From assembly GCA_017656305.1 (NCBI GenBank), contig JACDOG010000003.1, positions 1-64,000 of the forward strand: 64,000 nt of DNA, read 5' to 3'. This document shows, one piece after another, positions 16,180-62,366 of the stretch. The stretch comes from Thermoanaerobacteraceae bacterium (lineage in GTDB: Bacteria > Bacillota > JADQBR01). The position numbers were made by a program, and so were the translations under genes. The notes beneath the pieces are model-generated. The model was not told the DNA's origin, did not search any database, and was given only the letters and a program-made list of their open reading frames with translations. Position 1 is the first letter of the stretch, and each line of letters starts with the position of its first letter.

Positions 16180-16795
16180 GTGATACTCAGGCTATCACGC
16201 TTCCAAATAGTAATACGGTGGCGCAGTATTCTAGTCAGGATACCGGTTTCGAAGGCGGGCCTAAAAATCCGTCAAGGGCACAACGATGAAGTTCCTGGTG
16301 CTGGCTGCCGACGCCCCGTCGGGGGTCGGTGCTGGGAGTTAAGGGGGATGGGGCGATCTACAAGGGCATGTAGGCGTTGACCCCGCCCCCGCGGAGACCT
16401 AAGTGCGTGGCGTCTTTCCAACGAGAAAACGCTACGGCTTAGGGTGTAAACCTGCATGCGGTACGAAGAGTGCTGTGTGCAGTGTAGCCTGCCTTGAGTG
16501 GTGGTGGTGGATAAACGCAAAGGCACCACGGTCAAGTGGCCATAGACCATGGTTGCCTGTTTTGAAACCTCCACTGCAAAAGAGGCTAGAAACCGGTTTA
16601 CTGTCGAGGAAAACTCCTAGACTGTTTGCCGTTAGGGCAAGGCTAGATAGGGATTAAAGTGCGTGCTAAGTGGTAATCCAGCCCTGACTCCGGCGACGGG
16701 TCAGAATCAATCTTAAAGGGAAACCGCCTGGGCGGCGACGCCGGGTGATTGATTGGGAAAACCTGCTGGACCTAAGCCGCAGCGTTTACCTATTT
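16180..16795 (+). ncRNA. OLE RNA (ornate, large, extremophilic RNA)
   Basis: A ~610-nt GC-richer, non-coding, pairing-dense segment sits between ispA and a ~200-residue membrane protein followed by dxs, exactly the genomic niche and size of OLE RNA. Visible helices: GTGATA/TATCAC (16180-16198), CCGAC/GTCGG enclosing CCCC/GGGG (16308-16329), AATCAATC/GATTGATT (16705-16712 with 16747-16754), and a long-range pairing of 16429-16443 with 16771-16785 (14 of 15 pairs). OLE forms a membrane-bound ribonucleoprotein with OapA and contributes to cold, ethanol and Mg2+ stress responses in Bacillus halodurans. Ends are approximate. Confidence 0.86.
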
Positions 16796-16872
16796 AGCCG
16801 CCACCGTATTATACATAACATTTTTGTGGCCATATTGGTCAAGTGTTTGCCGTTGAATGGAGTGAATGGTGT

Positions 16873-60426: not shown

Positions 60427-60765
60427 TTGAACACAAGTGTCAAGCACTTTGGCAATACAGTACTGGTGTCCGTTTGGGGTGAACTGGACATGAAGGTAGC
60501 GGACAGCTTCCGGCAGAGACTGGATACTCTGTTAGACAGGTATCCGGAAAGCAACCTGCTGCTGGACCTGTCGGGGGTTAACTTTATTGATAGTTCGGGG
60601 TTGGGAGTAATTTTGGGGCGGTACAAGAAACTGGCTAAGGAAAATAGAAGCATAGCAATCAGCGGCGTGCAGCCGCAGGTGAGGAAGATATTGGAGCTGT
60701 CGGGAATCATGAAAATTATCGAAGTTTATCCTTCGGAAGAAGATGCATTATCCCAATTACTCTAA
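60427..60765 (+). CDS. spoIIAA: Anti-sigma-F factor antagonist SpoIIAA
   Basis: 112-residue STAS-domain protein. Phosphorylatable Ser57 in FIDSSGLGVILGRYK. Dephosphorylated SpoIIAA frees sigma-F from SpoIIAB in the forespore. TTG start after AAGGGAGGT. Unusually, the next gene does not follow at once: a 364-bp gap with a structured RNA intervenes. Confidence 0.96.
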   Translation: MNTSVKHFGNTVLVSVWGELDMKVADSFRQRLDTLLDRYPESNLLLDLSGVNFIDSSGLGVILGRYKKLAKENRSIAISGVQPQVRKILELSGIMKIIEVYPSEEDALSQLL

Positions 60766-60901
60766 GTCCTGCGGTAATATGTCAAGTACCTAAAATGAAA
60801 AATCGGACAGCATTTTCTCAAATTATCCTTAGATAATTGTCTGGGAACATCACGAAAAGTCCAACCCCTAATTTTCAATTTTGAAAAGTTTCTAGAACCT
60901 G

Positions 60902-61014
60902 CTCTTGACGGCGAGCCTCTGACCGCATGGTTAACACAGACTGGGCAGCTCCCTTCTGAAGGGGGTGTCTGTGTGGCCGGAAAGCCTACCATGGGGCCTT
61001 CTTACCGTCAAGGG
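60902..61014 (+). ncRNA. Structured RNA element between spoIIAA and spoIIAB
   Basis: Rod-like fold by eye: P1 60902-60911/61005-61014 (core CTTGACGG/CCGTCAAG); P1b GCCT/GGGC (60915/60994); P2 CATGGT (60926)/ACCATG (60988); P3 ACACAGAC (60934-60941)/GTCTGTGT (60967-60974); apical CTCCCTT/AAGGGGG; side hairpin GGC/GCC with loop CGGAAA. A further hairpin AATTATC/GATAATT lies at 60821-60838. No T-run, no open frame. Not a class I recognise. Confidence 0.68.
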
Positions 61015-61084
61015 TAAAATGAAGGGTTTCTCTATGGATAAAGAGTTAATTTTAGTTTGATTGTTAAGACCTGAACCGGAAATT

Positions 61085-61113
61085 TTGTGGTTGGGTTGGT
61101 CAAAACATATTAT
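61085..61113 (+). promoter_or_regulatory. Possible extra promoter before spoIIAB
   Basis: TTGTGG (61085-61090), 17 bp, TATTAT (61108-61113). Only 16 bp before the GTG start, which leaves a very short leader, so confidence is low. Confidence 0.3.
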
Positions 61114-61129
61114 ATGAGGGGGTAGGAGA

Positions 61130-61570
61130 GTGAATACTGCAGATATGGGCAAGTTGTTGAATAAAGTCACAATGGAGTTTTCCAGCATAGCAGAGAACGT
61201 CGGGTTGGCCCGGGTGACTGTTGCCAGCGTTGCCTCCCAGGCGGATTTAACTTTAAATGACCTGGAGGAAATCAAGGTGGCTACTTCCGAGGCTGTTTCC
61301 AATGCTATTATTCACGGCTACGAAAACCGCCGGGACGGTCGAGTAAAACTGGAGATTAGCCGGTTTGAAAATTGGCTAGAAATAGTAGTGGATGATAAGG
61401 GTAAAGGGATTGAAAATATTCAGCAGGCCATGGAACCCACTTATTCTTCCGACCCGGAGAGAATGGGCTTGGGATTTGTCTTCATGAAGTCATTTATGGA
61501 TGATTTGGAGGTTAAATCGGAACCGGGTCAGGGGACTGTAGTCATCATGCGAAAAAGGTTAACAAAATAA
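61130..61570 (+). CDS. spoIIAB: Anti-sigma-F factor SpoIIAB
   Basis: 146-residue GHKL kinase: N box EAVSNAIIHGYEN, G1 VDDKGKGIENI, G2 MGLGFVFMKSFMDDLEV. Binds sigma-F with ATP and phosphorylates SpoIIAA. GTG start after GGGGGTAGGAGA. sigF follows 13 bp later. Confidence 0.96.
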   Translation: MNTADMGKLLNKVTMEFSSIAENVGLARVTVASVASQADLTLNDLEEIKVATSEAVSNAIIHGYENRRDGRVKLEISRFENWLEIVVDDKGKGIENIQQAMEPTYSSDPERMGLGFVFMKSFMDDLEVKSEPGQGTVVIMRKRLTK

Positions 61571-61583
61571 GGGGAGCAGGTAT

Positions 61584-62366
61584 ATGGTAAGCCGTTTGTC
61601 AGAAATGAATTTACCACGGTTTCCCTTGCTTTCCGATGAAGAACAGATGGAACTTTTGAAACGGGCGCAACAGGGAGATAGGGAAGCACGCGAACGTTTG
61701 GTAAATTGCAATTTAAAACTGGTTTTCAACGTGGTGCAGCGGTTTGACAACAGGGGCTATGATATTGAGGATTTGTTCCAGATCGGTACCATTGGTTTGA
61801 TAAAGGCCATTGACAAATTTGATATGTCATATAATGTAAAATTTTCTACGTATGCTGTTCCCATGATTGTCGGGGAAATCCGGCGCTTTTTGCGGGACGA
61901 TAACCCGGTAAAGGTCAGCCGGTCTTTGAAAGAAACCGCTTCCAAGGTGCGGATGCGCAAAGAGGAACTCAGTAAAGAACTAGGGCGGGAACCGACCATC
62001 CAGGAACTGGCCGAAAGTTTGGAGATTCCCAAAGACCAGATAATTGAAGCTTTGGAGGCGGTGCAGTCTCCCAGTTCCATCTATGACACGCTTTACAAAG
62101 ATGATGGAGACCCCATTTTCGTGCTGGACCAACTGGGTAGCGCCGAGGAGGAAGAAGAAGCCTGGTTTGATAAAATCGCGTTAAAAGAGCTTTTGAAACA
62201 GCTGCCGGAAAAACACCGCAAGGTCCTGGTAATGCGTTTTTTCCAGGACAAGACACAGACAGAAGTGGCGGAGGCAATTGGTTTGTCCCAGGTGCAGGTA
62301 TCCAGAATTGAAAGACAGGCACTAAAACAAATCCGCCAGTTAATGGCGGACACTAAAAAAAGGTAA
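61584..62366 (+). CDS. sigF: RNA polymerase sigma-F factor
   Basis: 260 residues, sigma-70 family group for sporulation/flexible stress: region 2 LVNCNLKLVFNVVQRFDNRG-YDIEDLFQIGTIGLIKAIDKFD, region 3 SRSLKETASKVRMRKEELSK, region 4.2 KTQTEVAEAIGLSQVQVSRI. First compartment-specific sigma factor of the forespore. ATG after GGGGAGCAGG. Confidence 0.95.
   Translation: MVSRLSEMNLPRFPLLSDEEQMELLKRAQQGDREARERLVNCNLKLVFNVVQRFDNRGYDIEDLFQIGTIGLIKAIDKFDMSYNVKFSTYAVPMIVGEIRRFLRDDNPVKVSRSLKETASKVRMRKEELSKELGREPTIQELAESLEIPKDQIIEALEAVQSPSSIYDTLYKDDGDPIFVLDQLGSAEEEEEAWFDKIALKELLKQLPEKHRKVLVMRFFQDKTQTEVAEAIGLSQVQVSRIERQALKQIRQLMADTKKR

Follow-up and report, generated by a model that had tools for sequence, protein, structure and literature searches.

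A 352-bp miniature IS110-group element carrying a hairpin module probably fills the gap between spoIIAA and spoIIAB in a Thermoanaerobacteraceae bacterium

Insertion sequences (IS) of the IS110 group recombine at a short core, and their excised circle rebuilds a sigma-70 promoter across the right end (RE) and the left end (LE), which drives a bridge RNA (PMC11208160). We analysed a 64,000-nucleotide stretch of the genome of a Thermoanaerobacteraceae bacterium (contig JACDOG010000003.1 of assembly GCA_017656305.1, positions 1 to 64,000, hereafter the window), in which 364 nt separate the sporulation genes spoIIAA and spoIIAB, and we conclude, with a probability of roughly 0.93, that this gap is occupied by a 352-bp miniature, non-autonomous element of the IS110 group. 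In common with the described IS621 type of that group (PMC11208160), it has homologous ends, a CT/AG dinucleotide core with no target duplication beyond it, a long LE, a short RE and a sigma-70 promoter split between the ends; the bridge-RNA-like structure upstream of a DEDD recombinase is shared by the full copies only. Unlike the IS621 type, the window element has no recombinase, is left with just the first ~60 nt of its bridge RNA and carries in its LE an additional structure, referred to below as the rod, and its clade targets Shine-Dalgarno sequences instead of REP elements. It also resembles known miniature elements, being short, devoid of transposase, equipped with the ends of a parent IS and accompanied by parental relics at other places in the host DNA. 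The name of those elements does not apply literally, since IS110 ends are without terminal inverted repeats; in addition, the host genome holds one complete miniature copy only.

The insertion can be read directly from empty sites. The ends of the two genes, 60765 for spoIIAA and 61130 for spoIIAB, bear out the 364-bp separation to which an earlier note, made by a model from the letters of the window, had drawn attention. In two genomes of the same family, G001 and G002, the gap is 12 nt (TAA|GGGGGTAG..GTG), with junctions reading CTAA|GGGGGTAGAATA|GTG and CTAA|GGGGGAAGAACG|GTG, respectively. The window junction reads CTAAG[352 bp]GGGGTAGGAGAGTG, and subtracting 352 bp from 364 leaves the same 12 nt. 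Among the other measurable spoIIAB loci (three loci were left out of the comparison), none has a gap near 364 nt. The inserted DNA (60767..61118, minus strand in the orientation of the recombinase) is bordered by AG on both sides. The left core (60765..60766, CT on the recombinase strand) is defined by the empty sites and by identical full copies, and its A is shared with the spoIIAA stop codon TAA at 60763-60765; the right core (61117..61118) forms, with the bases that follow it (AGGGGG), the ribosome-binding site of spoIIAB. Both the stop codon and the ribosome-binding site are untouched. No further target duplication was observed, which fits IS110 recombination at a short core (PMC11208160).

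The family of the element was recognised from its ends. When the gap was searched in 150 related genomes, pieces of it were found in a constant order, namely query positions 1-42, 44-111, the rod and 306-360. About 1.57 kb separates the left part from the other pieces in G002 and G086, and the intervening DNA carries, on the strand opposite to that of the window, the gene for a protein of 416 aa with matches to PF01548, PF02371 and NF033542 ('IS110 family RNA-guided transposase'). The combination of PF01548 and PF02371 that marks a DEDD recombinase is present in full-length relatives (L035) and absent from the window copy, which has also lost most of the adjoining non-coding end. Identical copies within one genome define the ends of the element, and full copies have an LE of ~530 nt and an RE of ~110 nt. 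Only four relatives of the recombinase came out of a scan of the genome contigs. In the window, the RE (60767..60807, minus strand) corresponds to query 1-42, which is conserved in G001, G002, G036, G083, G086 and G121, and holds a -35 half-promoter, TTGACA, at 60785-60780; the tip of the LE (61071..61116, minus strand) holds a -10 half, TATAAT, at 61114-61109, is conserved on contig 5 of the host and is 93% identical to a relic upstream of carD. As read from the sequence, the two halves would stand 17 nt apart on the minus strand of a circle. The possible promoter suspected by the earlier note is not supported as a promoter of the gap in place: a consensus scan gave 0 matches, and the half-promoters at the element ends face each other only in the circular form. 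The assignment to a non-autonomous IS110-group element rests on the 352 extra bp between the copies of AG, together with the related full-length ends that enclose an IS110-family recombinase. Among the options listed in the earlier note, an inserted selfish RNA was essentially correct; the note was also prepared to abandon its novel regulatory RNA should the gap prove to be a known mobile element, and an IS110-group element is what we found.

A remnant of the bridge RNA is still visible in the window copy. Full copies contain, nearer to the recombinase, a structure of 255-259 nt closed by pairing of the TTGGACTTTTCG/CGAAAAGTCCAA type, and this bridge-RNA-like fold stands apart from the rod. 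By-eye alignment to the structures of L035, L033 and L034 places the truncated 5' part, consisting of the closing strand TTGGACTTTTCG and the first hairpin, at 60809..60867 (minus strand). Only these first ~60 nt are retained; the target loop, the donor loop and the 3' closing strand are missing. The upstream hairpin proposed in the earlier note does exist, at 60823-60836, and belongs to this truncated bridge RNA.

We then considered where elements of this clade insert. The count was limited to insertions whose LE starts with CTCGTA and for which flanking sequence was available, 35 in all, with the reservation that the LE finder picked false ends in some loci; 33 of these targets begin with AGG, and in 29 of the same insertions the opposite strand has a start codon a short way downstream, in most cases at 12-15 nt from the core. 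The AGG targets and the close start codons indicate that the clade lands at Shine-Dalgarno sequences. In the bridge RNA of full copies, the 5' side of one loop resembles CTCCCTCCT, and the same RNA contains CCCGCAGGCTG, which resembles the RE donor CCGCAGGACT (a match made by eye). For a guide loop that had been located by eye beforehand, the guide matched its own target at 7.9 of 10 positions vs 6.4 for the targets of sister elements, and 21 of 40,320 permutations were as good. The guides CACTCCT (G155) and CTCCCCCT (G234) also match their own sites. In collections of plasmids and phages, the only matches to the start of the bridge RNA were two partial ones in plasmids, and none was found to the rods.

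IS900-like IS110 elements insert at ribosome-binding sites. They and the window element both adjoin the ribosome-binding site and start codon of a gene, in different groups of hosts. The tempting reading of the gap as a sporulation riboswitch is in this way replaced by a testable one, that of an RNA-guided element which inserts next to ribosome-binding sites and leaves the gene intact. This habit explains how so sensitive an operon as spoIIA can harbour an insertion that survives.

No IS110 recombinase above threshold is present in the host, where a decayed fragment of 72 aa upstream of carD is all that is left of one. That fragment belongs to a decayed IS110 copy on contig 11 (L103 2960-3345), which retains both ends and lies at the AGGGGG ribosome-binding site of the carD-like gene. 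A further relic on contig 5, in the interval that separates selD from a yedF-like gene, consists of half a rod and an LE tip of the same type (L104 3010-3165, minus strand) and likewise ends at a ribosome-binding site, GAGGGGGG. Since no recombinase remains in the host and the loops of the bridge RNA have been lost, the window element is either a fossil or owes its movement to a copy, since lost, that acted in trans; it has probably lost its own mobility.

The most conspicuous part of the gap is the rod, a three-helix RNA or hairpin module of ~111 nt (60903..61013, minus strand), with weaker outer pairing that extends to about 60892-61032. It is recognised by two models, R1 and R2, and by covariation; its score of 90 bits with R2 is that of a sequence used to build the model. 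The earlier note had described a rod with two perfect 8-bp helices, and both are confirmed: CTTGACGG/CCGTCAAG at 60904-60911 and 61005-61012, and ACACAGAC/GTCTGTGT at 60934-60941 and 60967-60974. The window copy also has the features of the whole family, namely helices P1, P2 and P3 and conserved loops of the AGAGG and TAGGCT types. The rod is a module of its own, with the junction promoter on one side and, downstream, the bridge RNA on the other. By itself its folding energy is only modestly unusual (-55.6 kcal/mol, z -2.6, for the plus strand; -46.7, z -2.3, for the minus strand), and it is covariation, a kind of check that the earlier note had recommended, that settles the reality of the structure: the evidence of compensatory change among rod copies is overwhelming. 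In 14 rods aligned with MAFFT, 91.9% of the cells pair vs 77.7% in shuffles, and 15 of the 26 pairs change on both sides. With 59 matches, an alignment which was fitted to the model and leans toward it, and in which three rows repeat, as reverse strands, rods that it also contains in the forward sense, pairing is 93.8% vs 72.8% in shuffles and 20 of the 26 pairs change on both sides; it falls to about 40% when the partner is slid by one column. Wobble pairs favour one strand (76 G.U vs 18 A.C), which suggests selection on RNA, with the model's own strand adding to the bias.

A first rod model, built from seven copies, had matches in 11 of 200 genomes; a wider one (A5, R2), applied with a threshold of E ≤ 0.001, found the rod in 34 genomes out of 399 sampled from the phylum. 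The Rfam scan recommended in the earlier note (Rfam release 15, gathering and permissive thresholds) returned no family matching the rod or its relatives, and this structured RNA is thus absent from Rfam 15; like the RNAs collected there, it has covarying helices with conserved internal loops. Our literature search, with ISfinder and subscription papers outside its range, found no publication describing the rod family.

Rods are found in the non-coding ends of IS110 elements (G002, G086, G234 and G057), and also in elements of other kinds. One lies downstream of OrfB within an IS3 element of 1424 bp, of which G002 has two identical copies, and in a second IS3 subgroup the rod stands directly behind OrfB in four genomes (the host, G274, G343 and G383). 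Others adjoin IS21 IstB and transposases of the IS256, ISL3 and IS200 types; G086 has repeats of 352 bp, bounded by GTATCTCGTG ends, that contain a rod, and others, read by eye, lie in multi-copy repeats of G150 and G357. Some are in plain intergenic regions, and terminal inverted repeats around such lone rods are little above background. Transposases or integrases account for at least 17 of 51 open reading frames (ORFs) within 300 nt of rods vs at least 2 of 55 ORFs more than 900 nt away (Fisher p = 7e-5), these counts being minima that cover the 25 most frequent families of each set. In an IS110 relative in G357, a different perfect hairpin takes the place of the rod, which hints that a hairpin at this position is useful whatever its sequence.

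A few individual copies can be added to this survey. In the host, an IS3-family element on contig 47 (L003 280-1730) has its rod directly behind OrfB, and contig 8 carries an internally deleted copy of an element of this type (L045 2017-2320), in which OrfA runs into the rod. The miniature element with GTATCTCGTG ends, 352 bp with a central rod, was seen in G086 (L142/L146 1410-1761) and G014 (L135), and both of its G086 copies adjoin CCTCC sequences resembling ribosome-binding sites. A search with the rod pattern found three rods in viral contigs of IMG/VR (L245 9704-9807, L246 10305-10411 and L247 5553-5657), the first of them behind an IS3-type OrfB.

Taken together with IS110 biology, these observations can be arranged as follows. 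The parent element would have been excised as a circle, whose rejoined ends would have rebuilt a promoter for a leader, the rod and the bridge RNA; the complex would then have integrated next to the ribosome-binding site of spoIIAB, which stayed whole. Deletion in place may have produced the miniature copy, or an intact copy since lost from the genome may have moved it in trans. As for the rod, we regard it as a hairpin RNA module in its own right, which has spread among mobile elements and would insulate their transcripts or help to mature them; our best guess at its roles is, for example, to separate the leader of the junction promoter from the bridge RNA, or to block read-through. In the spoIIA mRNA it would be a passenger, which may loosen the coupling of spoIIAA to spoIIAB or alter mRNA stability. 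More generally, we tentatively propose, at somewhat less than even odds, that the rod belongs to an undescribed RNA class, shared as an exchangeable module by unrelated families (IS110, IS3, IS21, IS256, ISL3 and IS200) and their miniature derivatives, with a common job such as the recruitment of a host factor by which their transcripts are shielded or matured. The IS110 relic is ordinary and the rod family is the more surprising part: if true, the use of one strongly covarying structure, absent from Rfam 15, by transposon families of separate origin would mean that selfish elements have a tool in common of a kind not seen before, and the conserved loops allow the family to be tested directly.

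Several points weigh against this account. The guide was chosen by eye, so that the match between guide and target is support and not proof. The orientation of the rod relative to the neighbouring transposase is mixed, and a single role in cis is hard to fit to it. Transcription of the rod and of the bridge RNA in this organism is predicted from sequence, and any job for the rod is a guess.

A serious rival, which we hold to be unlikely on balance, is that the rod acts as DNA, as a cruciform or hairpin used for excision, for replication or as a landing site of other elements. Indeed, the rod is palindromic and lies in either orientation beside transposases, its covariation is equally compatible with DNA and RNA hairpins, and some mobile elements target hairpins such as REP and attC. 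However, the wobble bias described above and the conservation of the internal-loop sequences on that same G.U-favoured strand speak against it, and within IS3 and IS110 elements the rod is internal, not flanking. Inspection by eye for an integron attC site revealed no matching end motifs.

With a lower probability still, the rod might be an RNase III substrate or a stabilising hairpin, maintained in this operon because it breaks the coupling of spoIIAA to spoIIAB within their common mRNA. Its long, nearly continuous imperfect helix and its co-transcribed position would suit such a function, and Correia elements, which are bacterial miniature elements, are cut by RNase III. Nevertheless, the preserved stop codon and ribosome-binding site suggest that the insertion is tolerated rather than used, and the outer helix is partly lost in the window copy.

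That the rod is itself the bridge RNA (the guide RNA) of the element is very improbable: its structure and its place in the long non-coding end, the usual site of bridge RNAs, would suit this identity, but we rejected it because the separate 255-259-nt structure has the loops that match target and donor, because rods also occur in IS3, IS21, IS256 and ISL3 elements without an IS110 recombinase, and because related IS110 elements have no rod. Least probable of all is the proposal of the earlier note that the gap holds a SpoIIAB dosage tuner or forespore riboswitch, that is, a riboswitch or attenuator that evolved in cis to control the SpoIIAA:SpoIIAB ratio, since, although it lies between two genes whose ratio matters and its structure is stable and conserved, the copy at this junction is found in no other measurable genome, both same-family genomes have the 12-nt gap, the other rods lie in mobile elements or at unrelated genes and intergenic regions, and the conserved strand of the rod is antisense to the spoIIA mRNA.

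The element that we propose lies in an operon whose genes were confirmed by profile matches. By profile search, the spoIIA-operon proteins match TIGR02886 (just below cut-off), TIGR01925 and TIGR02885: spoIIAA (60427..60765, plus strand) encodes a STAS-domain protein assigned through TIGR02886, spoIIAB (61130..61570, plus strand) is intact, with a GTG start and a TIGR01925 score above cut-off, and sigF (61584-62366), also a profile match, is the next gene. Beside an IS110 insertion in G357, a match to the S10-Clostridia ribosomal protein leader (L082 2348-2450, minus strand) scored 34.3 bits vs a threshold of 35.1. Elsewhere in the window, a full-length OLE RNA (RF01071) lies at 16202-16820 on the plus strand, with a score of 540.9 bits.
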